Origin: Chryseobacterium lactis
GTDB taxonomy: Bacteria; Bacteroidota; Bacteroidia; Flavobacteriales; Weeksellaceae
Length of the DNA: 64,000 nucleotides
NCBI RefSeq assembly: GCF_003815875.1
Contig: NZ_CP033924.1
Location: forward strand, 5,456,001 to 5,520,000
Reading direction: 5' to 3'
Part shown: piece after piece, positions 18,060 to 38,039 of the stretch
Layout: each line of letters opens with the position of its first letter
How positions within the stretch are numbered: the stretch's first letter is position 1
Position numbers and translations under genes: made by a program
Notes under the pieces: model-generated
Database searches by the model: none
Seen by the model: only the letters and a program-made list of their open reading frames with translations
Told to the model about the DNA's origin: nothing

Positions 18060-21000
18060 ATGAAAAAACTTATAATCCCTGTAGGAATGCTATTGGCAAC
18101 AGGTGCTCTGAAGGCACAGCTCAGCCCGATTCCTGCTACAGAAAATTACGTTCAGACCAAAACATATCTCGATTATAATGGAAGCCAGCCTACCAAATCA
18201 TCAGAAACTGTTCAGTATTTTGACGGATTGGGAAGGCCGAAACAAGTTGTGGGAATAAAAGCTTCTCCACAAGGAAAAGATGTGGTCACTCATATTGAAT
18301 ATGATGCATTTGGAAGACAGGTAAAAGACTATCTTCCTATCCCGCAATCCGGAACCCAGAATGGAGCGATATATACTTCACCATTAGGAAATGCCTCTTC
18401 TATCTATGGTGGAGAGAAAATATTTTCTGAAAAGATATTAGAGAATTCACCACTCGATAGAATCCAGCAACAGATCCAGGTGGGTAATGACTGGGGTTCC
18501 AAGCCTGTTAAATTTGATTATGAGGCAGTTACCATAGCTGATGGAGTAAGAAAGTTTATTACCACTACGAGCTGGGTAAACGGAGCTACCCAATCTGTAT
18601 TGGCTGAAGATTGGTTGTACAGAGACGGGCAGTTATTTAAAAATACAATTACCGATGAGGACGGCAACAAAACTGTTGAGTTTAAAAATAGTAGAGGACA
18701 AACGGTGGTCGTTAGAAAAATTGTAAATGGAGAATATGCAGATACCCACTATGTATATAACGAATATGACCAACTGGCATTTGTATTGCCTCCGTTAGCC
18801 AGTATTAGAGGTGATATTGTGGCCAATACTGTAAAACATGATGAGTTGTGCTATCAGTACCACTACGATGGAAGAAATCGTTTGGTAGAAAAGAAGCTTC
18901 CCGGAAAAGGTTGGGAATACATGGTCTATGACAAGCAAGACAGATTAGTAGCTACACAGGATGCTAATCTCAATGCAAAAGGTCAATGGATCTATACAAA
19001 ATATGATGAACTGGGAAGAGTGGCCATTACAGGAATTGCAACTGGAAGTGACAGAAGTCAGGAACAGGCTATTGTGAACGGATATGGTTCAAATAATGTC
19101 ACCAGGCTCAACACAGTTTTGTTTAACAGACAAGGAATGGATGTCTATTACGGAAATCCGGATAACACGTATCCCAATTCTACCAAATGGGTGAGTTTAT
19201 TATCTTTAAATTATTATGATTCTTATCCCGGATACAGCTTCAATCCTTCATTTCCTGCAACAATACAAGGCGAGCCTACTTTAACACCAACACCTTCTTC
19301 TGACGGAAGAAGTACAAACAGCCTTCCTCTTGTCAGCCTGGTGAAAAATATTGAAGATGACAACTGGACTAAAAATTATACCTACTATGATTTAAAAGGA
19401 AGAGCAATAGGAAGCTATTCCATCAATCATTTGGGTGGGTATACCAAAACAGAATCTAAGCTGAATTTCTCCGGAACTCAGCAAATGGCTGTCACCAGAC
19501 ATAAAAGACTTACTACAGATACGGAAAAAATAATTACTGAGAATTTTGAATATGATCATCAAAACAGGTTACTTGTACATAAGCATCAGGTAGACAGTAA
19601 CCCTGTTGAGATTTTAACCCAGAATACCTATAATGAGCTTTCGCAGGTTTCGAATAAAAAAGTAGCCAATAACCTTCAGAGCATTGACTATGCCTACAAT
19701 ATCCGTGGATGGATGACCAAAATCAATGATCCTGCTAATCTGAATGGAAAGCTGTTTGGATACGAGCTCAGGTATAATAATCCTCCTTATACGAATATAG
19801 CCACCGGAAAATACAACGGAAATATCGCAGAGATCGATTGGAGAAACGCTTCAGAAGATGTTCTGAAAAGATATTCCTATTCTTATGATGCGCTAAACAG
19901 ATTAAAAGATGCCATTTATACCGAACCAGGTACAACAAATCCTTATAACAATAATTTCAATGAAAATCTCACCTACGATCTGAACGGAAATATCCTGACC
20001 CTGAAAAGAAATGCTGTCCCGGTAACAGGTACAACGGCTACCCAGGTAGACGATCTGCAGTATCAGTACACCGGAAATCGCCTGAACCAGGTTATAGAAA
20101 ATGCAATGAATAACACGGGCTATGAAGGAGGAAATAATATCATTGATTATGATCCAAATGGTAATATGATCAATATGAAGGATAAAGGAATTCAGTCCAT
20201 TGTTTATAATTACCTGAATTTACCCAACGCCATAGGAATTACCCAGGTGAATCCTGCGGGAAAAGTAAGCACGACCAACATCGCTCATATGTATCGGGCT
20301 GATGGCATAAAGCTCCGTAAGACATTTGTTCAATCAGCTTATATGGGACTTCCTATACAGCGCATGACAGATTATCTTGACGGGTTTCAGTATTCATATA
20401 TAGATAACGGAACAGGGTGTTTTACCTGCAAAACGGAAAATGCCTATGAAGAACAGGCTTACAGAAAAATCATTATTCCGGTCATCCCCGGAGACCCAAA
20501 ATGGATCCTGGATTTTGTACCTACTGCAGAAGGCTTTTATAGTTTCACAGAAAACCGTTATATTTATCAGTACAAAGATCACCTTGGAAATGCCAGGGTA
20601 AGTTTTGCCAAAAACAGCGCAGGCGTTCTGGAAGTAACCGATACCAACAGCTATTACCCGTTTGGATTAAACCATATCGGAGGGTTTAAAGGACTTTTAA
20701 GTGGGTATTATAATTACAAGTACAATGGGAAGGAGTTGCAGGAGACTGGGATGTATGATTATGGAGCGAGGATGTATATGCCTGATTTGGGTAGATGGGG
20801 CGTGGTGGATCCGTTGGCGGAAACTTCAAGAAGATGGAGTCCTTATACTTATGCTTTTAATAATCCTATAAGATTTATTGATCCGGATGGCAGACAAGCA
20901 ACGGATATATACAAAATGGATAAAAGTGGCAATCTTACATGGATGGCTGAATCTAAAACGGATGTGATTTATACTGAAAAGAATTTTGATAGTAGTGGAA

Positions 21001-21557
21001 ATCTAAAGACTGAAAATGATGGTGGATTTGAAGTTGGTGAAAAAGGCTTTATCAAAGGGAATACTCATCAATATTCAACAACTGGAGAGACATATTTGGA
21101 CTTTAAAGGAGATGAAGCAAAAGGTCTGGATTATCTTAATCAAGTAGGAGATTGGATGAAATCGGGAGAAGTAAATGTGGAATTTGGAATACAAACAGCT
21201 GAAGTAAATGGTAAAGATAATACTGTTGTATATACATCTAATCAGGAAACGTCTACAAGTCCCGTTTATGATGGAAATAATGTTAAATTACAAGGACATT
21301 TGCATCCTGGGACATGGAATCCCGAACAAATTTCAGGCCCCTTAAATCCTAGTGGGTTTCGAATGTCAAAATTTCCACTAAAAGAAAATGGCTTTACCTC
21401 TAAGATAATGAGTAAAACTAATCGTGGAGATAGAGTGTCTGCAGAAACTATGCCTAATGCAGTGAATTTTATTTACGCTCCGGCACACAATACAACCATT
21501 ATATATAATAGTTCTCAAATAATTAAAGCTTATGAAGGAAAATTTAAAAAAAATTAA
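18060..21557 (+). CDS. DUF6443-type Rhs protein with variable C-terminal toxin-like tip
   Basis: 1165 residues. A signal peptide (residues 1-19) is followed by a DUF6443-like segment (TVQYFDGLGRPKQVVGI, IEYDAFGRQVKDYLPIP), many YD repeats, and the Rhs core KYNGKELQETGMYDYGARMY ... GRWGVVDPLAE ... YTYAFNNPIRFIDPDGR, which ends near residue 945. The last 220 residues are different in base use (more AT) and carry GHLHPGTW followed by GPLNPSG, which recalls the HxHP and PS parts of JAB-like toxin domains; the assignment is tentative because the last metal-ligand Asp is not clear. An overlapping lipoprotein gene follows and is the likely immunity gene. Confidence 0.85.
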   Translation: MKKLIIPVGMLLATGALKAQLSPIPATENYVQTKTYLDYNGSQPTKSSETVQYFDGLGRPKQVVGIKASPQGKDVVTHIEYDAFGRQVKDYLPIPQSGTQNGAIYTSPLGNASSIYGGEKIFSEKILENSPLDRIQQQIQVGNDWGSKPVKFDYEAVTIADGVRKFITTTSWVNGATQSVLAEDWLYRDGQLFKNTITDEDGNKTVEFKNSRGQTVVVRKIVNGEYADTHYVYNEYDQLAFVLPPLASIRGDIVANTVKHDELCYQYHYDGRNRLVEKKLPGKGWEYMVYDKQDRLVATQDANLNAKGQWIYTKYDELGRVAITGIATGSDRSQEQAIVNGYGSNNVTRLNTVLFNRQGMDVYYGNPDNTYPNSTKWVSLLSLNYYDSYPGYSFNPSFPATIQGEPTLTPTPSSDGRSTNSLPLVSLVKNIEDDNWTKNYTYYDLKGRAIGSYSINHLGGYTKTESKLNFSGTQQMAVTRHKRLTTDTEKIITENFEYDHQNRLLVHKHQVDSNPVEILTQNTYNELSQVSNKKVANNLQSIDYAYNIRGWMTKINDPANLNGKLFGYELRYNNPPYTNIATGKYNGNIAEIDWRNASEDVLKRYSYSYDALNRLKDAIYTEPGTTNPYNNNFNENLTYDLNGNILTLKRNAVPVTGTTATQVDDLQYQYTGNRLNQVIENAMNNTGYEGGNNIIDYDPNGNMINMKDKGIQSIVYNYLNLPNAIGITQVNPAGKVSTTNIAHMYRADGIKLRKTFVQSAYMGLPIQRMTDYLDGFQYSYIDNGTGCFTCKTENAYEEQAYRKIIIPVIPGDPKWILDFVPTAEGFYSFTENRYIYQYKDHLGNARVSFAKNSAGVLEVTDTNSYYPFGLNHIGGFKGLLSGYYNYKYNGKELQETGMYDYGARMYMPDLGRWGVVDPLAETSRRWSPYTYAFNNPIRFIDPDGRQATDIYKMDKSGNLTWMAESKTDVIYTEKNFDSSGNLKTENDGGFEVGEKGFIKGNTHQYSTTGETYLDFKGDEAKGLDYLNQVGDWMKSGEVNVEFGIQTAEVNGKDNTVVYTSNQETSTSPVYDGNNVKLQGHLHPGTWNPEQISGPLNPSGFRMSKFPLKENGFTSKIMSKTNRGDRVSAETMPNAVNFIYAPAHNTTIIYNSSQIIKAYEGKFKKN

Positions 21558-22005
21558 AATAGTTCTCTTATTATGCATTCTTTTATTGAATTTTGGTTGC
21601 TCTGCTCAGACTCACCAAAAGAAGGATTTTTATAATTACATAGAAAAAATAATTGGTGAAAAGGAGTTTGCTTTTTTTGAAATAAGCTTAATTAAAAAAT
21701 GTAACAATCAATATCTGTTCGGCTTTGCAAAAATGAATTATAATGATAATCTCTCTAACAGGATTAAGACTTATAACTATAAAGGCTCTTTAATAATCTT
21801 TGACTTGGGTGAAGAAAAAGATAAGCAGATTATCAATTTTTTCGATTCTTTTTTTGAGAAAACAAATCAAGATATATCTAATTTAAAGAAAGGCAGGCAA
21901 TCAACAATTGATGAAAGAGCACTCTATTTCGTAGATAAAAAATTCATTCCAGATTTTAATAGAACTCAGATTTTTATGGAGAGCGACTGCGATAAAAGCG
22001 AATAG
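21532..22005 (+). CDS. Putative immunity lipoprotein for the Rhs tip
   Basis: 157 residues. The ATG lies inside the last 26 bases of the Rhs gene in another frame. The N-terminus MKENLKKIKIVLLLCILLLNFGC is a lipoprotein signal with lipobox LNFGC (Cys23), then SAQTHQKKDFYNYIEKIIGEKEF. The body is charged and of mixed alpha/beta type, with no family recognised. Immunity genes always follow the toxin tip closely, and periplasm-facing anchoring would suit a toxin that acts outside the cytoplasm. Base composition is AT-rich like the tip, which suggests both arrived together. Confidence 0.65.
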   Translation: MKENLKKIKIVLLLCILLLNFGCSAQTHQKKDFYNYIEKIIGEKEFAFFEISLIKKCNNQYLFGFAKMNYNDNLSNRIKTYNYKGSLIIFDLGEEKDKQIINFFDSFFEKTNQDISNLKKGRQSTIDERALYFVDKKFIPDFNRTQIFMESDCDKSE

Positions 22006-22370: not shown

Positions 22371-22394
22371 TAGTTTTTTAACCACATAAAAAAC

Positions 22395-22425
22395 AAAGGC
22401 TGTCACCACAAAGTTGACAGCCTTT
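22395..22425 (-). terminator. Terminator of the L-fucose/lactate operon
   Basis: AAAGGCTGTCA (22395-22405) pairs with TGACAGCCTTT (22415-22425), 11 bp with a 9-base loop; on the minus strand it is followed by GTTTTTTATG. It lies 43 bases past the last gene. Confidence 0.85.
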
Positions 22426-22467
22426 CCTTTGAAAAAAGTAAATGCTAATATAATAAATGTGTTTTTT

Positions 22468-23247
22468 TTATAAAGCTCTGTCCAGATGTACATAGCCACC
22501 ATCCACATGGATAAGCTGGCCTGTGGTATGGCTGGATTTTTCCGAAAGTAAAAAAGCCACCATATGGGCAATTTCTTCCGTTTTAGTCATTCTTTTTTCA
22601 AAGGGTATTTTATCGGTTATCTTTTTCAGTTGGCCTTGCGGGTCTTCAAAAGTGCTGATCCATTTTTCGTATAATGGGGTATAAGCTTCTGCAACGATGA
22701 CGGCATTCACTCGAATATGATAAGGCAACAATTCTACAGCCCATTCTCTGGTTAATGCATTCCTTCCTCCATTGGCTGCCGCATAGGCTGATGTTCCTCC
22801 CTGTCCTGTTTCGGCGGTTTTGCTTCCGATATTAACAATACTTCCCTTGCTTTTCTTCAAAGCCGGAAGAACGTAATGAGCCAGAAGATAATAATGAACA
22901 AGATTTTTATGCAGCGATTCCATAAAAGCTTCATAGTTTCCATCCTCCAACCCGATGCCATCATTTTCTCCTGCATTGTTGACAAGCCCGTCTATTCTGT
23001 TAAATTTTGTCATCACCTCATCAATGGCTTTCCTGCATTCTTCAGGATTCGTAAGTTCTGCCGTTATCTCGTGAGCCGTCAGATTTTCTGATGTCAGAAA
23101 ATCGATTAATTGCTGATTATCTTCCCTGTTTCTGCCAATAATTACAGGAATAGCTTTTTCCCTCGCGAGCACTTTTACAATACCTTCTCCTATTCCTTTA
23201 GCTCCACCGCTTACGATAATAATCTTATTTTCGAGTTGTAAATCCAT
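22468..23247 (-). CDS. SDR-family sugar dehydrogenase, probably L-fucose dehydrogenase
   Basis: 259 residues, last gene of the operon. Rossmann motif VSGGAKGIG (residues 12-20), NNAGENDG (90-97), Ser142 and Tyr155 at SDR spacing. The active-site Y-x-x-x-K is YAAAN here: the lysine is replaced by Asn159 (codon AAT at 22773-22771). Since the rest of the active site is kept, the enzyme is probably active with a variant proton relay. In this operon it would oxidise the free sugar to the 1,5-lactone with NAD(P). The second SDR of the operon has the normal lysine, so the two are not interchangeable. It starts 3 bases after the lactonase. Confidence 0.8.
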   Translation of the reverse strand: MDLQLENKIIIVSGGAKGIGEGIVKVLAREKAIPVIIGRNREDNQQLIDFLTSENLTAHEITAELTNPEECRKAIDEVMTKFNRIDGLVNNAGENDGIGLEDGNYEAFMESLHKNLVHYYLLAHYVLPALKKSKGSIVNIGSKTAETGQGGTSAYAAANGGRNALTREWAVELLPYHIRVNAVIVAEAYTPLYEKWISTFEDPQGQLKKITDKIPFEKRMTKTEEIAHMVAFLLSEKSSHTTGQLIHVDGGYVHLDRAL

Positions 23248-23250
23248 AGA

Positions 23251-24072
23251 TTATAAATTATAAAAATGAATAGCATTTTCTTCAAGAATCTGTTGTTGCT
23301 CCTCTCTGCTCAATTGCTGTATATATTCTTTTACAAGTTGCAGCCACTCAGAATAGTTTGTATTCAAAAGCATAACGGGCCAGTCACTTCCAAACAGAAT
23401 TCTCGAGGTTCCAAAATATGTGAATACAATATCCAGATAAGGCTCCAGCATTTCTTTTGTCCATTTTCCCTTTGCCGCTTCAGTCACCAATCCGGAAAGT
23501 TTACAATGTACATTCTCTGACCGTGCTAAAGCGATAATATTTTTCTTCCATGTTTCAATCTCCAGATTTTTTATATCAGGTTTTCCCATATGGTCCAAAA
23601 TCAGCTTCTGATCCTGAACTTGTCTTACAAACTGAATCACTTCTTCCATCTGAGAATGGTAGATTAAAATATCATACGTATATCCATAAGCCTGAAGTTT
23701 TCTGATATTACCCACAAATTGAGGTTGGGAAAGAAAACCTTTCGGCTCAGCCTGAACAATATGACGCCAGCCTTTTATTACAGGATATTCTTTAAATTTC
23801 TGCAATTGATCTTCAAAATCATGGCTCAGAAAATCTATCCAGCCCACAACTCCTTTGATCTTTGGATATTTTTCTGCCAATTTCAGTAGAAATCGGGTCT
23901 CTTCCAAGCTTTGATCTGCCTGAACTGCGACAATTCCATGAATATGATGATCCACCAGTATTCCATCAATATCTGATGGCAAAAAATCCTGCCGGATTGC
24001 GGTCATGCTGTCATCGATCCAGGAATCCCGAACCTTATCATATTTCCAGAAATGTACGTGAGCATCAATCAT
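23251..24072 (-). CDS. Amidohydrolase-family sugar lactonase, probably L-fucono-1,5-lactonase
   Basis: 273 residues. The N-terminal metal motif is DAHVHFWKYD (H5, H7), followed by VKGWRHIVQAEP, LILDHMGKPDI (His) and the C-terminal LFGSDWPVMLLNT with the catalytic Asp. This arrangement is that of the COG3618 lactonases, which include L-fuconolactonase, and the length is typical. It should hydrolyse the lactone made by the neighbouring dehydrogenase to the open aldonate. It lies 3 bases after the mutarotase and 3 bases before the SDR gene, deep in one operon. Confidence 0.85.
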   Translation of the reverse strand: MIDAHVHFWKYDKVRDSWIDDSMTAIRQDFLPSDIDGILVDHHIHGIVAVQADQSLEETRFLLKLAEKYPKIKGVVGWIDFLSHDFEDQLQKFKEYPVIKGWRHIVQAEPKGFLSQPQFVGNIRKLQAYGYTYDILIYHSQMEEVIQFVRQVQDQKLILDHMGKPDIKNLEIETWKKNIIALARSENVHCKLSGLVTEAAKGKWTKEMLEPYLDIVFTYFGTSRILFGSDWPVMLLNTNYSEWLQLVKEYIQQLSREEQQQILEENAIHFYNL

Positions 24073-24075
24073 TTT

Positions 24076-24405
24076 TTATAGATTAAAAATTTTATCCATG
24101 GTAATCCATTTCTCTCCCGGTTGAGAATGTGGTAATGCCTGCTGATATTTCCACATTAATGTTTCCCATTCCTGAACTTTTGCGTTGGATTTATCTGCTT
24201 TTACCTTACTTTCAAAAGAGAAATTATCTTCCACTTCCATGATCATAAAAAGACGGTTTCCGGTACGGTATATTTCCATATTCAAAATTCCTGAAGCCTT
24301 TATACTGTCAAGAATTTCCGGCCATACTTTCTGATGATATTCTTCATATTCGCGGATCAGATGTTCATCATCTTTAAGGTCCAAAGCCAGCACATATCTT
24401 TTCAT
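24076..24405 (-). CDS. L-rhamnose/L-fucose mutarotase (RhaM/FucU-like dimeric barrel)
   Basis: 109 residues, the standard length. Seen: LALDLKDDEHLIREYEEYHQKVWPEILDSIKASGI, with the His and Trp-Pro-Glu of the RhaM family, then NMEIYRTGNRLFMIMEVEDNFSFE and WETLMWKYQQALP. The family interconverts alpha and beta anomers of L-rhamnose, and close members act on L-fucose. Here it would supply the anomer needed by the sugar dehydrogenase. Its start codon shares one base with the stop of the upstream hydrolase gene, so translation is coupled. Confidence 0.88.
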   Translation of the reverse strand: MKRYVLALDLKDDEHLIREYEEYHQKVWPEILDSIKASGILNMEIYRTGNRLFMIMEVEDNFSFESKVKADKSNAKVQEWETLMWKYQQALPHSQPGEKWITMDKIFNL

Positions 24406-25253
24406 TAAGAATAAGATTTAATGTTTTGCTTACTTGTTCCCAGCCCCTCAATACCTAGTTCTACCACATCACCAGGTTGTAAATACCACGCTTTAGGTTT
24501 CTGCCCCATTCCTACTCCGGCCGGAGTACCGGTTGAAATAACATCTCCCGGCAATAAAGTCATAAACTGGCTGATATAGCTGACGATATAAGCTACATCA
24601 AAAATAAAGTTGGAAGTATTCCCGTTTTGCATTAAAGTACCATTCACTTTCAACCAAAGCTTCAAATTGTTGACATTCTCTATCTCATCTTTTGTAGCAA
24701 TGAAAGGCCCTATCGGAGCAAAAGTATCGGCACTTTTCCCTTTCACCCACTGTCCGTTTCTTTCAATCTGAAAAGCTCTTTCACTATAATCATTGTGCAA
24801 AGCATAACCTGCAATATGATCAAAAGCATCCTCTGGTTCTACATAGCTGGCTTTTTTGCCAATGATGATCGCCAGTTCCACTTCCCAATCGGTTTTTGTA
24901 CTGTTTTTAGGAATAATTACATCATCATCAGGGCCTACAATTGCTGAAGTAGCTTTAAAAAACAAAATTGGCTCAGAAGGAATCGGCATATTGGTTTCTG
25001 CAGCATGATCTTTATAATTGAGTCCTACACATACAATCTTCGATGGTCTTGCCAATGGCGCTCCTAATCTCACATCTTTATTAATTTCCTGAAGATTTCC
25101 TTCCGCAATTTTTTGTTTCAATTCTTCAATCGCATTACCGGAAAAAAACTGCTCATCGTATTCATTAACCAAATGAGAGACATCATAGTATTTTTCGCCT
25201 ATGATGACTCCCGGTTTTTCCTGACCTTCTGCTCCGTATCTTATTAGTTTCAT
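24405..25253 (-). CDS. Fumarylacetoacetate-hydrolase-family protein, probably 2,4-diketo-3-deoxy-L-fuconate hydrolase
   Basis: 282 residues with a short N-terminal domain and a C-terminal FAH fold. Seen: KIVCVGLNYKDHAAETNMPIPSEPILFFKATSAIVGPDDDV, then TDWEVELAIIIGKKASYV (metal-binding Glu residues), YALHNDYSERAFQ and GDVISTGTPAGVGMGQKP. FAH enzymes cleave C-C bonds of diketo acids with Mg2+. In the non-phosphorylating L-fucose route described in Xanthomonas, an FAH enzyme splits 2,4-diketo-3-deoxy-L-fuconate to pyruvate and L-lactate. The flanking lactonase, dehydratase and dehydrogenase genes make that role likely here. Confidence 0.85.
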   Translation of the reverse strand: MKLIRYGAEGQEKPGVIIGEKYYDVSHLVNEYDEQFFSGNAIEELKQKIAEGNLQEINKDVRLGAPLARPSKIVCVGLNYKDHAAETNMPIPSEPILFFKATSAIVGPDDDVIIPKNSTKTDWEVELAIIIGKKASYVEPEDAFDHIAGYALHNDYSERAFQIERNGQWVKGKSADTFAPIGPFIATKDEIENVNNLKLWLKVNGTLMQNGNTSNFIFDVAYIVSYISQFMTLLPGDVISTGTPAGVGMGQKPKAWYLQPGDVVELGIEGLGTSKQNIKSYS

Positions 25254-25286
25254 ATCAATTATATAAGTTTATTTTTTCTACTTAAT

Positions 25287-26054
25287 TTAATTATTCAAAG
25301 TCGTAAAACCTCCATCGATCGGATAATCGCATCCCGTTATAAAAGACGCCTCATCACTGCATAAATATAACGCTAATGCAGCAATTTCCTTCGGATAGGC
25401 CATTCTTCCTATGGGTTGTGTTTTAGAAAGGTTCTGAAACATCTCTTCCACATTATCCGGATAGTTTTTTTGTAAAAATCCATCTACAAAAGGCGTATGA
25501 ACCCTTGCCGGAGAAATAGAATTACAGCGGATATTTTCATGGATATAGTCTCTGGCCACGCTCATTGTCATTGCTTTCACAGCTCCTTTCGCGGTACTGT
25601 AGGCAAATCTGTCGGGGATTCCCACCAAAGCAGCGATAGAAGCCAGGTTTAGCACTACTCCATTCCCGGATTTTTTAAGATGTGGAATGGCAGCGTGCAA
25701 ACAATTGTATACTCCTTTTATATTAACAGAAATTATTTTGTCAAAATCTTCTTCTGAAGTGGTATCAGCTTTTCCCACATGGGCAATACCGGCATTATTT
25801 ACCAGAATATGAAGCGCTCCGATTTCCGTAAACACCTTTTTTACCTGCTGATGATCAGAAACATCAGAGGCATGAACAAAGGCTTTTCCTCCTTGATTTT
25901 CTATGCTTGATAAAACCTCAGCTCCATTCATTTCATTGAGTTCCAGAATATGAACTTCAGCACCCTGCTCAGCAAACAGTTCGGAAATGGCTTTTCCGAT
26001 TCCACTACCGCCTCCGGTAATGACTGCCTTTTTATTTTTTAATGAAAACATCAT
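25287..26054 (-). CDS. SDR-family dehydrogenase, probably 2-keto-3-deoxy-L-fuconate dehydrogenase
   Basis: 255 residues with all classical SDR motifs: TGGGSGIGKA, NNAGIAHVGK, NLASIAA (Ser), YSTAKGAV (Tyr-x-x-x-Lys), and the closing CDYPIDGGFTTLNN. It should oxidise the C4 hydroxyl of the 2-keto-3-deoxy acid made by the adjacent dehydratase, giving the 2,4-diketo acid used by the FAH enzyme. The position between dehydratase and hydrolase genes matches the order of the reactions. Which deoxy sugar acid is used (fuconate or rhamnonate) cannot be told from the sequence. Confidence 0.85.
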   Translation of the reverse strand: MMFSLKNKKAVITGGGSGIGKAISELFAEQGAEVHILELNEMNGAEVLSSIENQGGKAFVHASDVSDHQQVKKVFTEIGALHILVNNAGIAHVGKADTTSEEDFDKIISVNIKGVYNCLHAAIPHLKKSGNGVVLNLASIAALVGIPDRFAYSTAKGAVKAMTMSVARDYIHENIRCNSISPARVHTPFVDGFLQKNYPDNVEEMFQNLSKTQPIGRMAYPKEIAALALYLCSDEASFITGCDYPIDGGFTTLNN

Positions 26055-26067
26055 ATCTTTTTTAAAA

Positions 26068-27705
26068 TTATAAACTCACTCCTTTTTTCCATGGAATAAA
26101 ATCATCCTGATTTAATAATACTGCCTTCGGTATCGCTCTTCCACTTGCGACTTCGATGCAATAGTTTAATATATCCTCGCCCATTTCGGCAATTGTTTTT
26201 TCTCCCTCTATGATCGGCCCTGTATCAATATCAATAATATCAGCCATTCTTACAGCCAACGCTGAATTGGTTGCCACTTTTATAGTCGGACAAACGGGAT
26301 TTCCTGTTGGCGTACCCAATCCTGTTGTAAATAATATCAAGGTAGCTCCTGCAGCAGCTTTTCCTGTTGTTGCTTCTACATCATTTCCCGGCGTACATAC
26401 CAGATTGAGTCCAGACTGAGTTGCTTTCTCCGTATAATCAAGAACATCCGTAACCGGTGAAAGACCTCCTTTTCTGGCTGCTCCAACAGATTTTATAGCA
26501 TCTGTAATCAATCCGTCTTTAATATTTCCGGGGGAAGGATTCATATAAAAACCTGAACCTGCTTGATGAGCCAGAGCATCATATTCTGTCATCAACCGAA
26601 TAAATTTCTCTGCGATTTCCCTACTTACTGACCTGTCAATCATTTCCTGTTCGGCACCGCAAAGTTCCGGGAACTCAGCCAGCAAAACTTTTCCGCCAAG
26701 GCTTACCAGTAAATCGGCAGTATATCCCACCGCCGGATTCGCAGAAATCCCGCTAAATCCGTCACTTCCACCACATTTTACTCCCAAAACAAGTTTCTCT
26801 AGTCCTGCAGGTTTTCGTTCCATCTTATTTATTTCAATCAATCCGATAAAAGTATCATGAATAGCTTGTTTGATTAAAGTCTCTTCACTTTGTGCTGTCT
26901 GTTGTTCAAATACGAACAAGGGTTTATCAAAATCAGGATTTCTTTCCTGTAAATCTTTTTTTAAATTCTCCACCTGAAGATGCTGGCAACCCAGACTTAG
27001 AACGGTAACTCCGGCCACATTCGGATGATCGGCATAAGCCGCTAACAGTTTACTCAATAGAGCAGAGTCCTGTCTTGTTCCTCCACAACCTCCGCTATGA
27101 TTTAAAAATTTAATTCCATCAATATTTTTAAAAACCCTTTCCTTAGGTTCTATCACCGGGGCTAATGAAATATTCCCCAAATCCTCTCCTTTTTGAAAAG
27201 CTCCCAGTAAATGGTGGGTATATTCTTTATATTTATCACCTACAGCATAGCCTAATTCGTTGTGTAAGGCTTCTTTAATAATATCCAGGTTTCGGTTTTC
27301 ACAAAAAACAGCAGGGATAAAAAGCCAGTAATTGGCAGTTCCTACTTCCCCGTTGCTTCGATAATACCCGTCGAATGTTCTGCCTTTAAATTGAGAAATA
27401 TCAGGAGCTGTCCAATGATAGTCTTTGGCTCTGTACGCATAAGGTTCTGCTGCATGTTTTGTATTTCCCACACTCATTCGTTCGCCTTTTTTCACCTCAA
27501 ATTCTGTCTTTCCCACCAAAATGCCATACATCAATACATCGCTTCCCTTTGGAAGATTCTCGATGAAGAATTTATGTTTGGCCGGAATATTTTCCATCAC
27601 TTCATAGTGTTGTCCTTCAAACCGGATTTTTTCTCCAATTTGAATATCCTGCAATGCCACCAGGACATTATCTTTTGGGTTGATTTTTAAAACTTTATTT
27701 TTCAT
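26068..27705 (-). CDS. UxaA-family (altronate/galactarate dehydratase-like) sugar-acid dehydratase
   Basis: 545 residues. An N-terminal SAF domain (about residues 1-95, VGKTEFEVKKGERMSVGNTKHAAEPY) precedes the large dehydratase domain with NHSGGCGGTRQDS, SLGCQHLQVENL, LGVKCGGSDGFSGISANPAVG, CGAEQEM and CTPGNDVEATTGKAAAGAT. UxaA-type enzymes are iron-dependent dehydratases of sugar acids. The best-known L-fuconate dehydratase belongs to the enolase superfamily, and no such gene is in this operon, so a UxaA-type enzyme seems to do this step. The start overlaps the permease stop by 4 bases. Confidence 0.85.
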   Translation of the reverse strand: MKNKVLKINPKDNVLVALQDIQIGEKIRFEGQHYEVMENIPAKHKFFIENLPKGSDVLMYGILVGKTEFEVKKGERMSVGNTKHAAEPYAYRAKDYHWTAPDISQFKGRTFDGYYRSNGEVGTANYWLFIPAVFCENRNLDIIKEALHNELGYAVGDKYKEYTHHLLGAFQKGEDLGNISLAPVIEPKERVFKNIDGIKFLNHSGGCGGTRQDSALLSKLLAAYADHPNVAGVTVLSLGCQHLQVENLKKDLQERNPDFDKPLFVFEQQTAQSEETLIKQAIHDTFIGLIEINKMERKPAGLEKLVLGVKCGGSDGFSGISANPAVGYTADLLVSLGGKVLLAEFPELCGAEQEMIDRSVSREIAEKFIRLMTEYDALAHQAGSGFYMNPSPGNIKDGLITDAIKSVGAARKGGLSPVTDVLDYTEKATQSGLNLVCTPGNDVEATTGKAAAGATLILFTTGLGTPTGNPVCPTIKVATNSALAVRMADIIDIDTGPIIEGEKTIAEMGEDILNYCIEVASGRAIPKAVLLNQDDFIPWKKGVSL

Positions 27706-28994
27706 AGTCTTTTTACAATATGATCAACCGGTTTCCAGCCGTACATTCCGAATACAAATACAACTATAAAGCATATGAATGGTACAATATAACCGTATTG
27801 TATATTTTGGGTAACGTCTGAAATATATCCCAATCCAAGTGGTAAAATGGCTCCGCCCACAATAGACATCACGATGAGTGAAGAAGCCATTTTAGTATCT
27901 TTTCCCAAACCGGCAATTCCCAGAGAAAAAATAGTCGGAAACATCACAGACATAAAAAAAGCAACTCCTATTAATGCATAGATCGTAATGGTTCCGGTTC
28001 CGAATATGGCAACTAAAGTCAATACCATGCTTAGAACAGCGTATATCATCAATAATTTATTGGGTTTTATATACTTCATTAAAAAGGTTCCGGCGAAACG
28101 TCCTACCATAAAGGCTAAGCCCGCCAATCCGGAATAAAAGGCAGCATTTTTTTCTGTAATTCCTGCAGAGACAACAATAAAACGGATAAAAAAACTGAGT
28201 ACGCAGACCTGAGCACCTACATAAAAGAACTGAGCAACAACAGCCCACCTCAGATGTTTATGTTTCCAAGCATCAGAAATTTTGGTAGGATTTCCTTCAT
28301 CTTCATGTTTTATATCCGGTAGTTTGGTAAAAACAAATAGCAACATAACCACCACGATGATTATTCCCAAAATCAGGTAAGGCCCCTTCACACTGGCAGA
28401 TTCATGGGTAATATACATTTCCAGATCCTGTGGAGAAAGTGCTTTGATCTGTGCATCCGTAAGGGATTGCCCGGTAAGAATATATTTTCCACCTATAATC
28501 GGGGCAATAAAAGCGGCAAGCCCATTGAAAGATTGTGAGAAATTAAGTCTGCGGGTGGCTGTTTCTGCCGGTCCTAATATCGTTACGTAAGGATTAGCAG
28601 CCGTTTCCAGGAATGCGAGTCCGCAAGCGATTATAAAAAGTGCTCCCAAAAAGAAAATATACATTCTTGTATTGGCTGCAGGAATGAAAAGGAAAGCACC
28701 CAATGCAAACAGGCACAATCCGAATATAATTCCACTTTTGTAGCCATATTTTCGCATCATATTTCCGGCAGGAATTGCCATCAGAAAATAGGCAATAAAT
28801 ATGGAAAAATCTACAAGGGAAGATTCCAGATCGGTTAATTGAAATGCTTTTCTCAGATGAGGAATCAGCACAGGATCCAAATTATGGACAAAGCCCCAAA
28901 AAAAGAAAAGGCTGGTCACCAGTATCAATGGAAAAAGATAACTTTTCCTTTCTGATGAAACGGACGTGGATTGTTCCGGTGGTATATTTTGCAT
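27702..28994 (-). CDS. fucP: MFS sugar permease, FucP family
   Basis: 430 residues with 12 predicted membrane helices. The pattern FFFWGFVHNLDPVLIPHLRKAFQLTD near the N-terminus, FLETAANPYVTILGP (residues about 126-140) and RLNFSQSFNGL are the FucP/GluP-type signature of proton-coupled L-fucose or hexose symporters. It should bring the sugar across the inner membrane. The 3' end overlaps the dehydratase gene by 4 bases, so permease and enzyme are translated together. Confidence 0.9.
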   Translation of the reverse strand: MQNIPPEQSTSVSSERKSYLFPLILVTSLFFFWGFVHNLDPVLIPHLRKAFQLTDLESSLVDFSIFIAYFLMAIPAGNMMRKYGYKSGIIFGLCLFALGAFLFIPAANTRMYIFFLGALFIIACGLAFLETAANPYVTILGPAETATRRLNFSQSFNGLAAFIAPIIGGKYILTGQSLTDAQIKALSPQDLEMYITHESASVKGPYLILGIIIVVVMLLFVFTKLPDIKHEDEGNPTKISDAWKHKHLRWAVVAQFFYVGAQVCVLSFFIRFIVVSAGITEKNAAFYSGLAGLAFMVGRFAGTFLMKYIKPNKLLMIYAVLSMVLTLVAIFGTGTITIYALIGVAFFMSVMFPTIFSLGIAGLGKDTKMASSLIVMSIVGGAILPLGLGYISDVTQNIQYGYIVPFICFIVVFVFGMYGWKPVDHIVKRL

Positions 28995-29053
28995 AGTTTG
29001 ATAGGTTATATCCTCTTCATTATCTCAGTCTACATATGTTGTTTTAAGTTAAG

Positions 29054-29641
29054 TTATTTTAGAATAAATAAATGATGACTTCTTGCTCCATGAGCCCCAA
29101 TGACTAATGATTGTTCAATATCAGCTGTTTTAGACGGACCGGAAATAAAAAGAGAAAACCCGTCTTCAACCTTTGTTATTTTATAGGCATCATGTAGTAA
29201 GGGAACTATTGAATCTGCTTTCAGCATTACAAATAAGTGCTGTGTAATAAAGGGCAAAACCCGATACTTCATTTGATTTTCCGTAATCCAGACTGCCGCG
29301 TTTTCTGCTACGCCTATACTTCCTTCTATCACGGCGACATCTACACTTTCCAACTTATGAGGATCATTGATGTATTGATCTTCCAGTTCTTCATTTTCAT
29401 CTTCAAATCCTTTAATATTAAAAATGATTCTTTCGTCAGAGGCAATATTTTCAGTGATATAATTAATAATCTCCTTTTCATCTTCTATTAATGTTACTTG
29501 TGAACCATTGCTTTGAGCTGCTGCCACAAAGGTTTCTAGCAGGTTCTCGGCTGTGGAAATAAATGAAAAATCAGTTGGCAGTTCATTTTCTGCCGGTTTT
29601 GCTTTTTTTATTTTAGTTAAAATATCTTCCCTACTTCCCAT
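29054..29641 (-). CDS. lutC: L-lactate utilization protein LutC (LUD domain)
   Basis: 195 residues of the LUD/YkgG fold. Seen: TLIEDEKEIINYITENIA, SVDVAVIEGSIGVAENAAVWITE (the conserved segment of the family) and LFISGPSKTADIEQSLVIGAHGARSHHLFIL at the C-terminus. LutA, LutB and LutC together oxidise L-lactate to pyruvate in bacteria such as Bacillus subtilis. It overlaps the 3' end of lutB by 11 bases and sits 59 bases before the permease gene, which keeps it in the operon. Confidence 0.9.
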   Translation of the reverse strand: MGSREDILTKIKKAKPAENELPTDFSFISTAENLLETFVAAAQSNGSQVTLIEDEKEIINYITENIASDERIIFNIKGFEDENEELEDQYINDPHKLESVDVAVIEGSIGVAENAAVWITENQMKYRVLPFITQHLFVMLKADSIVPLLHDAYKITKVEDGFSLFISGPSKTADIEQSLVIGAHGARSHHLFILK

Positions 29642-31001
29642 CGCTTATATTTTTTTGATACCATTCTTTAAAACTTTCCTTTGGCATTTCCGGCATTTCT
29701 CTATGCTTATACCACGGATTTATTTTATTTTTCAATAAAAATGGGGTGTAACGATAGCCCCATTTTACTGTTCGTTTAAACTTTTCATATTTTTTTATAT
29801 TGCTTAAAGATCTCGCCATCATTTTCATAGAAAACCCTTTTATTGATTCTCCTGACCCTGATGCAATAATTTCCTGTCTTAATTCATACAATTGATTATG
29901 CAGATCGATTTTTACAGGACAGACATTGGTACAGGAACCACACAAGGTAGAAGCAAAAGGCAGATCTTTGTAGTCTTCCCTATTCCGTATTGGATTTAAA
30001 ATTGATCCGATAGGACCGGCAACCGCTGTATGATAGCTATGTCCGCCGCTTCGTCTATATACTGGACAGGTATTGAAACAGGCTCCGCATCGAATACATT
30101 TCAAGGAATTTCTGAACTTTTCCTTACCCAAATGTTCTGATCTTCCGTTATCCACAATAATAATATGCATATCCTGCCCGGCACGCGGTTTCCTAAAGTG
30201 ACTGGAATAAGTCGTAATAGACTGTCCGGTACCACTTCTGGCAAGCAGACGAAGAAAAATGCCTAAATGTTCACGCTTCGGAATTATTTTCTCCAATCCC
30301 ATACAGGCAATATGTACGTTAGCCAGATGAGTTCCCATATCTGCGTTTCCTTCATTGGTGCAGACTACAAATTCTCCTGTTTCTGCCACGGCAAAATTAA
30401 TCCCTGTTAAAGCTGCCTGACTTTGTAAAAACTTCTTTCTCAAATCCTGTCTTGCGATTTCAGTCAGCTGTTGAGGATCGGAAAGTCCTTCCGGTGCGTT
30501 GAGGTGCTTATGAAAAATTTCTCCAATCTCTTCTTTCTTTTTGTGAATGCAGGGTAAAACGACGTGACTCGGCGGTTCTTTAGCCAACTGAACAATCCTT
30601 TCTCCGAGATCAGTATCGGTTACTTCAATTCCATTTTTTTCCAGATATTCATTCAGATGGCATTCTTCCGTCAGCATGGATTTGCTCTTTACCATGTATT
30701 TTACCTGGTGATCTTTTAAAATAGAAAGGACAATTTCGTTGTGCTCTTCGGCATCTTTAGCCCAATGTATCTGAATACCATTCGCTAAGGCATTTTTCTC
30801 AAATTCCATTAAATAGGTATCCAGATTGGAAAGAACGTTGAGTTTTATTTTTGACGCGATTTCCCTCAATTTTTCCCAATCAGGCACCTGATGACTTTGC
30901 TTGTCTCTTTTCTCACGAACAAACCACAAGGTTTTATTATGCCAGTCGACCCGATTTTCATCGAGATTAAACTGTTCGGCTAAAGAGGCATGGTTTCTCA
31001 T
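29631..31001 (-). CDS. lutB: L-lactate utilization iron-sulfur protein LutB
   Basis: 456 residues. A LUD-type N-terminal half with INFAVAETGEFVVCTNEGNADMG is followed by two ferredoxin-like clusters, KCIRCGACFNTCPVYRR and LCGSCTNVCPVKIDLHNQL, and a C-terminal tail. It carries electrons from lactate in the LutABC complex, probably at the inner face of the membrane towards quinone. The start overlaps lutA by 4 bases (ATGA type) and the end overlaps lutC by 11 bases. Length matches the family. Confidence 0.93.
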   Translation of the reverse strand: MRNHASLAEQFNLDENRVDWHNKTLWFVREKRDKQSHQVPDWEKLREIASKIKLNVLSNLDTYLMEFEKNALANGIQIHWAKDAEEHNEIVLSILKDHQVKYMVKSKSMLTEECHLNEYLEKNGIEVTDTDLGERIVQLAKEPPSHVVLPCIHKKKEEIGEIFHKHLNAPEGLSDPQQLTEIARQDLRKKFLQSQAALTGINFAVAETGEFVVCTNEGNADMGTHLANVHIACMGLEKIIPKREHLGIFLRLLARSGTGQSITTYSSHFRKPRAGQDMHIIIVDNGRSEHLGKEKFRNSLKCIRCGACFNTCPVYRRSGGHSYHTAVAGPIGSILNPIRNREDYKDLPFASTLCGSCTNVCPVKIDLHNQLYELRQEIIASGSGESIKGFSMKMMARSLSNIKKYEKFKRTVKWGYRYTPFLLKNKINPWYKHREMPEMPKESFKEWYQKNISDGK

Positions 31002-31750
31002 TGCTCAGCGTTTTGGGTATTCAGAATTTCTGCGATGTGAATGACTTTTACATGGCTCTTTTCTCTGTTGGCAATGCCCTCCAGGTGCATCAGACAAGAC
31101 ATATCACATGCTGTAATATATTCTGCTCCGTTTTTCTCATGATCTGCTAACCGGTCTTTTCCCATTTTTGAGGAAACGGTTTCTTCGGTAACACAAAAAG
31201 TTCCGCCAAAGCCACAACATTCGTCCTTTTTATCCAGCTTAACCCATTCAATCCCTTCAACTTGTTGTAATAATTGTTCCGGCTTTGAAAAATAAGGAGC
31301 TGTCAATTCGCTCATGCCAGAAAGGTGCAAACCTCTTTGGCCATGGCAACTTTGATGAAATCCTACCTTATGAGGAAAGGATGCTTTCAGGTTTTCTACC
31401 TTTACAACATCCGTTAAAAACTCGGTCAGTTCATAGATATTGTTTTGAATATGCAGTGCCTGATTTTTTTCAAGATCACTTTCACCTTTCAGATGTTCTT
31501 TTATATGCAGGACACAACTTCCTGAAGGAGCAACAATCTTATCAAATTCTTTGAATTGTTGAATAAAGTTCTTATTGGTTCCACAAGCCAGATATTCATA
31601 CCCCGAATTAGCCATAGGTTGTCCGCAACATGTTTGTCCCATCGGATAGACGATATCGACTTTGAGCCTTTTTAACAAAGTATAAGTCGCTATTCCTACC
31701 TGAGGATACAGTACATCTATATAACATGGTATAAATAAGCCTACTTTCAT
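30998..31750 (-). CDS. lutA: L-lactate utilization protein LutA (CCG-domain)
   Basis: 250 residues with two CCG cysteine motifs: GQTCCGQPMANSGYE (around residues 40-54) and DKKDECCGFGGTFCV (around 178-192), which bind an unusual Fe-S cluster in LutA, GlpC and HdrB-type subunits. It opens the operon: the ATG at 31750 is the first gene after the AraC intergenic region. As the first gene under a sugar-responsive promoter it suggests that lactate is expected as soon as the sugar is used. Confidence 0.93.
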   Translation of the reverse strand: MKVGLFIPCYIDVLYPQVGIATYTLLKRLKVDIVYPMGQTCCGQPMANSGYEYLACGTNKNFIQQFKEFDKIVAPSGSCVLHIKEHLKGESDLEKNQALHIQNNIYELTEFLTDVVKVENLKASFPHKVGFHQSCHGQRGLHLSGMSELTAPYFSKPEQLLQQVEGIEWVKLDKKDECCGFGGTFCVTEETVSSKMGKDRLADHEKNGAEYITACDMSCLMHLEGIANREKSHVKVIHIAEILNTQNAEQ

Positions 31751-31795: not shown

Positions 31796-31862
31796 CAAAT
31801 TAGACTTTCTGCTGAGAATAAAATTCCATCATTTTATCCAATGATTAAGTTATTTTATCCAA
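31796..31862 (-). promoter_or_regulatory. AraC-type operator (two direct repeats) and promoter region of the lut-fuc operon
   Basis: ATTTTATCCAA occurs at 31831-31841 and again at 31852-31862, an exact 11-base direct repeat with starts 21 bases apart (two helix turns), the layout of AraC-family half-sites. On the minus strand a TAATTTG, one base short of the -7 consensus, lies at the complement of 31796-31802, so the repeats would sit just upstream of the -33 region, as for an activator. The region also lies in front of the AraC gene itself. Confidence 0.6.
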
Positions 31863-31905: not shown

Positions 31906-32772
31906 TTGAAACCGCAGTTTCTGAAAATATCGTCCCATACTTTACATTCTTTCAATGCTAGAAAGGACGTGATGCCTGATGTGAATAATAAATGGCATTA
32001 TCATATGGTGCTGGAACTTATTTATTTCCGGAAAGGTTCGGGAACACAGTATGTAGGAAACACGATTGAACGGTTCAGAGAAGGTGATGTAGCCTTGATT
32101 GGAAAAAATTTGCCCCATTACTGGCAGTTTGACCCGAAATATTTTGAAAACAACAAGAGAAATAAGGTTGAAGTCTTTGTGATCCATTTCGATGAAAATT
32201 TCTGTGGTGAAGAGTTTTTAAAGCTACCTGAGAATCACGAGTTGAAAAAGATGCTTCTTGCAAGTTCAAGGGGACTACAAATCAAAGGAGAAACCCGCGA
32301 AAAGCTGGTACAACTCATCCCTGAGATCATTAACAATACCGGAACTCTCAAAATTATTAAATTACTGGAGGCTTTATCTTTCATCAGCACTTCATTGGAT
32401 TGTGATTTTCTGGCTTCATCTCATTTCAAATGTCATTTTAATGAAGATGAAAAACAGCGGATTCAGGAAATTTACAATTATACATTATCACGGTATACGG
32501 AAAAGATTACTCTGGAAGAAATTGCAAGAATTGCCAGTCTTAATCCCAATTCCTTTTGTAAATTTTTTAAATCTAAAACCGGGAAAACCTATACTCAATT
32601 TGTCAATGAAATACGGATCGGAGATGCCTGTCAAAAATTAATTGAAGATCAAATGTCAGTCAAAGAAATCTGTTTTGCCAGTGGCTTCAACAATTTTACC
32701 AGCTTTCATGAATGTTTTAAAACCATTACCGGCAAAAGTCCTTTAAAGTACCAGCAATTGTATAGAAAGTAA
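31906..32772 (+). CDS. AraC-family transcriptional regulator of the sugar operon
   Basis: 288 residues with a TTG start at 31906 (a TAA lies two codons upstream, and no earlier start exists); an in-frame ATG comes only at residue 18, inside the domain. The N-terminal cupin domain has NKWHYHMVLELIYFRKGSGTQYVGNTIERFREGDVALIGKNLPHYW. The C-terminal domain has two helix-turn-helix parts, TLEEIARIASLNPNSFCKFFKSKTGKTYTQFVNEIR and VKEICFASGFNNFTSFHECFKTITGKSP. It is divergent to the lut-fuc operon, with a likely operator between them, so it probably activates it in response to the sugar. Confidence 0.9.
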   Translation: MKPQFLKISSHTLHSFNARKDVMPDVNNKWHYHMVLELIYFRKGSGTQYVGNTIERFREGDVALIGKNLPHYWQFDPKYFENNKRNKVEVFVIHFDENFCGEEFLKLPENHELKKMLLASSRGLQIKGETREKLVQLIPEIINNTGTLKIIKLLEALSFISTSLDCDFLASSHFKCHFNEDEKQRIQEIYNYTLSRYTEKITLEEIARIASLNPNSFCKFFKSKTGKTYTQFVNEIRIGDACQKLIEDQMSVKEICFASGFNNFTSFHECFKTITGKSPLKYQQLYRK

Positions 32773-33845: not shown

Positions 33846-34772
33846 TTAGAATTTAAGATCTCCATTCACTTCTCTTACTGCGTTAGCAGCTTCAGCGAAT
33901 TTCAATTGCTCTTCAGCAGTAAGTGTTACGTTTACGATTTTCTCTACTCCGTTGGCTCCAATGATTGCTGGAACTCCTAAGCAGATATCGTTTTGACCGT
34001 ATTCTCCTTCAAGCATCAAAGAACAAGGAATCATTTTCTTTTGGTCGCATGCAATTGCCTGAACCATTACAGAAACAGCTGCACCTGGTGCATACCATGC
34101 AGAAGTTCCTAATAATTTAGTAAGGGTTGCTCCTCCTACTTTAGTTTCTTCAATTACATATTTTTGTTGCTCTTCATCAAGGAATTCAGTTACAGGAACC
34201 CCGTTTCTTGTTGCTTTGCTTAATAATGGAAGCATTCCTGTATCACTGTGAGCAGCAATTACCATTCCGTCAACATCAGAAATTGGAGATTCCAATGCTT
34301 CAGCCAATCTGTATTTGAATCTTGCAGAGTCTAATGCACCACCCATTCCGATGATTTTGTGCTTAGGAAGACCTGAAGTTTTGTGTACTAAATAAGCCAT
34401 AGTATCCATAGGGTTAGAAACCACGATGATGATTACTTCCGGAGAATGTTTTACTAAGTTTTCAGTAACTTCTTTTACGATACCTGCGTTGATACCGATT
34501 AATTCTTCTCTTGTCATTCCAGGTTTTCTAGGAATACCTGAAGTGATTACTGCTACATGAGAACCTGCAGTTTTGCTGTAATCTCCTGTTGTTCCGGTAA
34601 TTTTTGTATCAAACCCGTTAAGAGATGCAGTTTGCATCAAATCCATTGCTTTACCTTCAGCAAACCCTTCTTTAATATCTACCAAAACTACTTCTGAACA
34701 GAAGTTCTTCATCGCGATGTATTCTGCACAGCTTGCTCCTACAGCGCCTGCACCTACTACAGTTACTTTCAT
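33846..34772 (-). CDS. mdh: NAD-dependent malate dehydrogenase (LDH-like type)
   Basis: 308 residues, the usual length. The N-terminal Rossmann motif is VGAGAVGAS. VITSGIPRKPGMTREEL holds the arginine that selects malate over lactate, followed by VVSNPMD and the catalytic His in IAAHSDTGMLP. It interconverts malate and oxaloacetate in the TCA cycle, in the cytosol. It is a single gene with its own promoter (34827-34857), which lies in and next to the terminator of the upstream heme oxygenase gene. Confidence 0.96.
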   Translation of the reverse strand: MKVTVVGAGAVGASCAEYIAMKNFCSEVVLVDIKEGFAEGKAMDLMQTASLNGFDTKITGTTGDYSKTAGSHVAVITSGIPRKPGMTREELIGINAGIVKEVTENLVKHSPEVIIIVVSNPMDTMAYLVHKTSGLPKHKIIGMGGALDSARFKYRLAEALESPISDVDGMVIAAHSDTGMLPLLSKATRNGVPVTEFLDEEQQKYVIEETKVGGATLTKLLGTSAWYAPGAAVSVMVQAIACDQKKMIPCSLMLEGEYGQNDICLGVPAIIGANGVEKIVNVTLTAEEQLKFAEAANAVREVNGDLKF

Positions 34773-35441: not shown

Positions 35442-35461
35442 AATAACGTTTTAAAAGTTTC

Positions 35462-37660: not shown

Positions 37661-38039
37661 ATTTATCTTCAGTCTATCAATCAAATATACCGCTTTTTTG
37701 AACAGCTTCCTATTTTGTGGTATTTTAATTATTGAATGGCTTTTAAGACAGATTGAGCGATGTTTTACCAAAAATGAAAACCAAAAAAATTAAAGCATTC
37801 ATGTTTTTTACCGCTTTTTGATAGCATTTATCTAAAATATACGAAAAAAAATCCAATAATTATGTTTTTCATCATTTAACCATGATTCATAACATGATTT
37901 ACATATTATTAATCCGAATAATGGTATTCTTTAAACAAATTTTGTTAAATTTATATCACCAAATAATGAATATGAAGACAAATACATTGAATTATTCACA
38001 ATAAATTCAATATAAATTTTAAATTCAAATAATACTATT
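37661..38039. other. Divergent promoter gap between bphP and the amidase gene
   Basis: 379 AT-rich bases with no gene. For bphP there is a -7 TATATTTG (complement of 37682-37689). Before the amidase gene a dyad TTGAATT (37987-37993) / AATTCAA (38004-38010) lies about 30 bases upstream of the ATG and could be an operator. No other structure stands out. Confidence 0.5.

Follow-up and report, generated by a model that had tools for sequence, protein, structure and literature searches.

The 64,000-nucleotide stretch of the Chryseobacterium lactis genome analyzed here (contig NZ_CP033924.1, positions 5,456,001 to 5,520,000; hereafter the window) carries ten open reading frames (ORFs) on the minus strand at 22468-31750. 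The best reading of their sequences, held here with high confidence, is an inducible operon for the complete non-phosphorylating oxidation of L-fucose to two molecules of pyruvate. In 5'-to-3' order the genes are lutA, lutB, lutC, fucP, and those for a dehydratase, a short-chain dehydrogenase/reductase (SDR), an FAH-family hydrolase, a mutarotase, a lactonase, and an SDR-type fucose dehydrogenase. FucP would import L-fucose, the mutarotase would supply the right anomer, the fucose dehydrogenase would form L-fuconolactone, and the lactonase, an amidohydrolase, would open this to L-fuconate. The UxaA-type dehydratase would then yield 2-keto-3-deoxy-L-fuconate, the second SDR would oxidize its C4, and the FAH hydrolase would split the resulting diketo acid into pyruvate and L-lactate, which LutABC would oxidize to the second pyruvate. 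An AraC-family protein is predicted to induce the operon through a direct repeat of 21-bp period. The C2-C4 configuration of L-fucose is also that of L-galactose and D-arabinose, which may enter the same enzymes.

The family assignments, obtained with queries that began one residue after the start codon of these minus-strand genes, cover each of these steps. The first three genes have the LutABC layout, being adjacent and encoding, in order, a CCG protein, a LUD plus Fe-S protein, and a LUD protein. The cysteine-rich subunit of L-lactate oxidation, LutA (30998-31750; PF02754 in two stretches, 104.7 bits), has its two CCG motifs at residues 41 and 178; LutB (29631-31001) combines LUD, ferredoxin, and LutB_C domains (PF02589, PF13183, and PF11870), with cysteine motifs for the [4Fe-4S] part at 302 and 354; and LutC (29054-29641) is a LUD-domain subunit (PF02589, 58.5 bits) with no NCBIfam match. 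The fucP-type MFS permease (27702-28994) passes TIGR00885 fucP (395.8 bits, cut-off 280.4) and matches the E. coli FucP structure 3o7q (E 3e-97). The predicted L-fuconate dehydratase (26068-27705) is of the GD_AH, or UxaA/GarD, type (PF20629 and PF04295); it lies under the cut-off of the galactarate dehydratase model TIGR03248 (280.9 versus 730.85 bits), and NCBIfam holds no model naming L-fuconate for this family. Downstream are the predicted L-2-keto-3-deoxyfuconate 4-dehydrogenase (25287-26054), an SDR with an S-Y-K triad, and the predicted 2,4-diketo-3-deoxy-L-fuconate hydrolase FucG (24405-25253), an FAH protein whose best model is NF053535 and whose nearest solved chain is 8gsr, an L-2,4-diketo-3-deoxyrhamnonate hydrolase (E 1.9e-81). 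The predicted L-fucose mutarotase (24076-24405) belongs to the rhaM family (PF05336, 110.6 bits), the predicted L-fucono-lactonase (23251-24072) is an Amidohydro_2 protein (PF04909), and the L-fucose dehydrogenase (22468-23247) passes the equivalog model NF052481 (414.8 bits, cut-off 300).

All ten ORFs, each with an ATG start, stand where the preliminary description of this DNA had placed them as minus-strand genes, many of which overlap or nearly overlap, and their families were confirmed, as were four overlaps (lutA/lutB, 4 nt; lutB/lutC, 11 nt; fucP/dehydratase, 4 nt; FAH/mutarotase, 1 nt) and gaps of at most 59 nt. The widest gap separates lutC from fucP and is without a stable fold (-3.3 kcal/mol, z 0.22); the second SDR gene is flanked by gaps of 13 and 33 nt, and the mutarotase-lactonase and lactonase-fucose dehydrogenase gaps are 3 nt each. 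Internal terminators, earlier named as the observation that would split the operon, were sought in a scan of the region with a loop limit of 8, and no terminator-like site was found between operon genes. The 15 sites in the region exceed the shuffles (mean 7.7, standard deviation 2.7), and the eight of them that lie on the minus strand inside operon genes are tentatively taken as chance or coding; promoter-like sites are not enriched (27 versus 32.5 in shuffles). Beyond the last gene, an intrinsic terminator with an 11-bp stem, a 9-nt loop, and a T-run was read by eye at 22395-22425 on the minus strand, a folding energy of -20.5 kcal/mol (z -4.83) being computed for 22388-22432; its loop exceeds the limit of the scan, which for that reason does not list it. 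We infer that the ten genes form one transcript. The identical ten genes recur in identical order, with a divergent AraC gene, 67-89% protein identity, and no evident difference, in two Elizabethkingia loci (L005 and L006), so the gene order is not due to chance.

The gene most telling of the substrate is, judged by its residues, the dehydrogenase of the second oxidation. Four types of L-2-keto-3-deoxyfuconate dehydrogenase are distinguished by four residues (PMC11199699, Table 5), and type 4, with R-R-F-T, is the assayed enzyme of Sphingobacterium mizutaii. Numbered from its second methionine, the window SDR has R148, R183, F192, and T211, the type-4 pattern, as matched by residue number and an alignment to 4dqx rather than against the S. 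mizutaii sequence; in that alignment, R148 and T211 correspond to the two 4dqx arginines singled out in PMC11199699. Among 29 aligned SDRs chosen at 50% identity or more (the window, its own-genome locus L115, and 27 others), 13 have R-R-F-T and 16 have R-R-F-S.

The dehydratase points the same way. In an 82-row tree made by a quick method, it is one of 14 rows in a clade made up of fucose-linked genes (SH-aLRT 99), and 37 uronate-linked rows, which lie beside uxaB- or uxaC-type genes, form a separate group with nine unassigned rows (support 87); fucose-linked rows overall are not one clade (three changes). The genome itself holds five GH29 fucosidase matches over cut-off, perhaps representing four genes because two lie close together in equal-length frames, no GH95, and no RhaEW over cut-off. 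Fucosidase homologues also occur in 5 of 32 fucose-type loci versus 1 of 48 others among the best 80 of 565 dehydratase loci, several of them incomplete, where fucose-type means at least one of the fucose dehydrogenase, second SDR, FAH, FucP, mutarotase, or lactonase genes (31 loci had two or more); one locus, L134, has two GH29 genes. As physiological context, Biolog GEN III plates showed that Elizabethkingia miricola Mich-1 metabolized both L-fucose and L-galactonic acid lactone (PMC12283610); L006 belongs to another strain of that species. The word rhamnose does not occur in the main text of that paper, but its missing from the substrate list proves nothing, since the list opens with "including". 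The route to pyruvate and L-lactate suggested in the preliminary description thus remains the best reading, on the gene families, the R-R-F-T pattern, the dehydratase clade, and the GH29 matches.

Several results weigh against this reading. LutB scores 441.1 bits to TIGR00273, 3.7 bits short of the cut-off (444.8). The permease also passes the gluP glucose/galactose subfamily TIGR01272 (233.9 versus 202.55) and falls under a second fucP model, NF007524 (355.1 versus 427 bits). In its alignment to E. coli FucP, whose D46 and E135 we take to be functional residues, Glu at E135 is retained, Pro stands at D46, and Asp sits one residue earlier, for which reason it is named fucP-type only; the Asp is at this earlier place in 20 of 22 related Bacteroidota permeases (Asn in two), with the Glu of the LET(A/I)ANP motif kept. 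For the second SDR, no L-2-keto-3-deoxyfuconate model was passed, none being listed, but its score exceeds the cut-off of a "glucose 1-dehydrogenase" subfamily (222.5 versus 215). The top match of the FAH hydrolase, the rhamnonate hydrolase model NF053535 (369.7 bits), is under its cut-off of 500, and the reaction concerned occurs in fucose and rhamnose routes alike. The mutarotase matched no fucose-specific NCBIfam model and reaches only 34.9 bits to TIGR02625, L-rhamnose mutarotase (cut-off 99.6), and the sole NCBIfam match of the lactonase, NF052480, is likewise under cut-off (252.6 versus 400). Four partial FMN_dh matches were found in the genome, and since two just exceed the cut-off (28.2 and 27.3 versus 24.9 bits), another lactate oxidase may be present. 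Finally, the H. huttiense dehydratase of the UxaA/GarD superfamily is weak on L-fuconate, with activities of 100% on D-arabinonate, 12% on D-altronate, 5.6% on L-fuconate, and 2.4% on L-galactonate, which share the C2-C4 configuration, and its product from D-altronate (and L-fuconate) was not as expected (PMC6336799).

Other substrates can be weighed against this background. An operon mainly for D-arabinose or L-galactose, with L-fucose as a side substrate and glycolate or glycerate released at the FAH step, is improbable: LutABC acts on L-lactate, which only a 6-deoxy-L-sugar yields, the permease passes the fucP model, and GH29 matches in the genome go together with fucosidases in related operons. 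It nonetheless draws some support from the preference of the H. huttiense dehydratase for D-arabinonate (PMC6336799), the action of Campylobacter jejuni FucX on both L-fucose and D-arabinose (PMC12566272), the acceptance of D-2-keto-3-deoxypentonate by L-2-keto-3-deoxyfuconate dehydrogenase (PMC11199699), and the use of L-galactonic acid lactone by E. miricola (PMC12283610). A non-phosphorylating L-rhamnose operon is more improbable still and was rejected on the type-4 dehydrogenase pattern and the family matches. L-Fuconate agrees in Fischer projection with D-altronate and galactarate at C2-C4, whereas L-rhamnonate differs, at C2, from the substrates of GD_AH enzymes, and the fucose dehydrogenase is an equivalog match. 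The rhaM-family mutarotase, the likeness of the FAH hydrolase to a diketo-deoxyrhamnonate hydrolase, and the diketo intermediate shared by the two routes (PMC11199699) would suit rhamnose, yet the 4-dehydrogenases of the two routes have opposite C4 stereoselectivity (PMC11199699), and a rhaM-family mutarotase gene also adjoins an L-fucose permease gene in B. thetaiotaomicron (PMC10434189).

It is also conceivable that LutABC is a separate unit for external lactate, in front of the fucose genes by chance, as the 59-nt gap between lutC and fucP and a weak promoter-like match within it (29047-29019) might suggest, although such matches are not in excess. This, too, we consider unlikely. No PF02652 lactate permease was found in the genome (other uptake routes were not searched), the order is kept in Elizabethkingia, the putative regulator site sits before lutA, and lutABC occurs in 7 of 32 fucose-type loci versus 0 of 48 others (Fisher p 0.001), figures that, coming from the best 80 of 565 loci, are not a prevalence. 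As the genome has one full-length LutB and no such permease, the lactate that LutABC handles in this strain most likely arises intracellularly, in agreement with the earlier proposal that the trio first in the operon is placed to oxidize the lactate of the L-fucose pathway. A nearby Ldh_1 gene (33846-34772) resembles malate dehydrogenase by eye.

The preliminary description had called lutABC unusual in a sugar operon, and this view does not hold: neighborhood counts reject the idea that it is rare there. Among 296 Bacteroidota genomes, LutB at E <= 1e-60 was found in 55 genomes at 62 places, all of whose neighborhoods were scored by tblastn (three, L090, L095, and L118, are shortened by contig ends to under 12 kb). 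LutA adjoins LutB in 38 of the 62, and for 26 of these 38 rhamnose or fucose genes lie no more than about 8.5 kb away, 22 being rhamnose-linked and five fucose-linked, with L089 both, and 12 neither; none of the 24 places without LutA is near such genes. Rhamnose-linked here means at least two of RhaI, RhaEW, and RhaK within that distance, RhaEW being named from one representative (two NCBIfam equivalogs over cut-off), RhaI from matches under cut-offs, and RhaK from FGGY Pfam matches. In L089 (genome G281) and L092 (G340), fucose dehydrogenase and FAH genes adjoin lutABC on the opposite strand, and in L089 a rhamnose operon lies on the other side, leaving one lutABC between rhamnose and fucose genes. 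There is also precedent, in that some Actinomycetales and Rhodobacterales include lldD and lldEFG in their rhamnose regulons, where these genes probably extend the pathway to pyruvate (PMC3870299, 2013).

Within fucose-type loci, lutABC takes differing positions: after the SDR gene in Flavobacterium granuli, F. cutihirudinis (with an extra ORF between lutA and lutB), and F. daemonense, before fucP in F. subsaxonicum, and before the dehydratase gene in a Sphingobacterium metagenome-assembled genome. Two other Chryseobacterium loci (L009 and L010) have fucose genes without lutABC, full-length LutB was found in none of 35 other genomes of the genus, and three Chryseobacterium-named dehydratases at 88% identity turned up in the homologue listing. 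The term "self-contained", used in the preliminary description, is fair for this operon but not a rule: fucose dehydrogenase and dehydratase genes lie no more than 15 kb apart in 13 sampled genomes (drawn from 68 dehydratase and 47 dehydrogenase places), and of these the present genome alone has LutB within 15 kb of them. By the same test, six of the remaining 12 have lutA-lutB elsewhere and six have none; in G307 the pair lies about 17-20 kb from the fucose genes, inside a rhamnose operon. Four Pedobacter loci without second SDR and FAH genes (L016, L018, L019, and L023) carry no lutABC; its absence as a mark of aldolase-branch operons was dropped, four loci being too few and the checked neighbors showing no aldolase.

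The curated LutB cut-off was rejected as a guide to LutABC. LutA adjoins 29 of 32 TIGR00273 matches under the cut-off and 9 of 30 over it, leaving 21 over-cut-off matches without lutA, and because lutA is commoner beside the lower matches the cut-off fails to separate LutABC in this sample. A second LutB-like LUD/4Fe-4S class, comprising 21 of loci L085-L114, passes TIGR00273 without an adjoining lutA and has recurring neighborhoods; the two neighbor families checked are Peptidase_M28 and CNNM/CorC rather than sugar genes, and the curated LutB name may be wrong for this class.

Placing these counts beside the phylogeny of LutB, it seems that lutABC entered fucose operons more than once. In a 44-row tree (including L121 and without L141 and L142, whose LutB frames were not called), fucose-linked and rhamnose-linked rows are intermixed. 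A single clade of nine fucose-linked rows (a set without L092, L089, and L141) was rejected by the approximately unbiased test (p-AU 9.6e-10), as it was, with a quick tree, without L134 (eight rows, p-AU 0.003) and, weakly, without L134, L062, and L011 (six rows, p-AU 0.031); rows had been labeled by context beforehand, but the reduced sets were picked once the tree was known, and support is modest at several forks. In G205, two copies of lutA, lutB, and the start of lutC share 95.7% DNA identity over 2172 bp. One lies in a rhamnose operon (L136), and the other (L134) is fucose-type, between the dehydratase gene and GH29, FAH, and GH29 genes, its dehydratase sitting on a long branch and clustering with fucose-linked rows (SH-aLRT 90-92). 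From the rejection of one clade, the differing positions, and this near-identical pair, we tentatively propose, at somewhat less than even confidence, that in much of the Bacteroidota lutABC does not serve lactate foraging but forms a detachable end unit of 6-deoxyhexose catabolism, passing back and forth between operons for rhamnose and for fucose. If so, the lactate oxidase of a genome would belong to whichever deoxy-sugar operon carries it.

The operon can be placed among described systems. A 2019 paper cited in PMC11199699 already connects, by its title, proteins of the D-altronate dehydratase family with L-fucose pathways. The route III L-fucose pathway (FucM, A, B, C, F, and G; PMC11199699) has the same reaction set, and the FucF residue pattern here is type 4, but the window operon, unlike that pathway as described, includes lutABC. 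L-Fuconate dehydratase of Xanthomonas is enolase-type (PMC6336799), whereas that of the window is of the UxaA/GarD family. The Campylobacter jejuni cluster shares a FucX-type dehydrogenase, an amidohydrolase, a transporter, and an altronate-type dehydratase (PMC12566272); it has dapA aldolase and aldehyde dehydrogenase genes where the window has the SDR and FAH hydrolase, predicted to give lactate directly, and lutABC. In the rhamnose regulons of PMC3870299, LutABC (LldEFG) is likewise appended to a 6-deoxyhexose pathway ending in pyruvate, but catabolism there is phosphorylating, via RhaEW, while here it would be non-phosphorylating, of fucose, and in the Bacteroidota. Both the pathway and the addition of lutABC to deoxy-sugar operons are already known, making this operon a neat variant and not a surprise; in the open-licence literature searched, no description was found of lutABC within a fucose operon of the non-phosphorylating kind. 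What seems new is the repeated entry of lutABC into fucose operons and the G205 lutA-lutB pair split between rhamnose and fucose clusters.

L-Fucose commonly occurs at the ends of host and algal glycans, and the window offers a testable, apparently complete gene set for converting it to two pyruvates without ATP-dependent phosphorylation. For annotation, when lutABC stands next to deoxy-sugar genes and the Bacteroidota genome in question has no lactate permease, the trio probably forms the end of a rhamnose or fucose pathway and should not be read as a sign of growth on lactate.

Regulation would fall to the divergent AraC-family gene (31906-32772, plus strand, TTG start as called; PF12833 and PF00165), divergent counterparts of which are present in related loci. 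Between it and lutA, about 80 bp before lutA, an unprompted repeat search with no preset motif returned a direct repeat of the 11-mer TTGGATAAAAT, perfect and with a period of 21 bp (31831-31862, minus strand), which is a predicted regulator site. Direct repeats of this period are described for AraC-family rhamnose regulators of several groups (PMC3870299). The 11-mer occurred in 0 of 300 shuffles, a circular figure since it was first picked by eye; L005 conserves 29 of the 32 repeat bases, compared with 90 of the other 123 intergenic bases. Evidence for conservation beyond Elizabethkingia is mixed and suggestive only. Compared at the 5% level with shuffles keeping base composition only, the window 32-mer beats them in 7 of 20 loci: in four of eight fucP-first loci with AraC proteins 50-57% identical (L016 and L018, which are near copies, L019, and L056, but not L007, L008, L023, or L067), in L012 (46% identical), and in two (L027 and L062) of 11 loci with AraC at 31-40%, the other nine not doing so. 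In five of the nine fucP-first loci with AraC at 46-57% (L007, L008, L012, L016, and L018), the position that matches best is 85-93 bp ahead of fucP.

Elsewhere in the window, a heme oxygenase gene adjoins a phytochrome histidine kinase gene (PAS_2, GAF, PHY, and HisKA) at 34890-37771 on the minus strand, pairing a bacteriophytochrome with its chromophore-making enzyme. Beyond the 3' end of the operon, the plus strand at 18060-22005 encodes an RHS-repeat protein with an N-terminal DUF6443 domain, and this gene is overlapped by a 157-residue ORF with no Pfam match that could, at a guess, be a partner gene.

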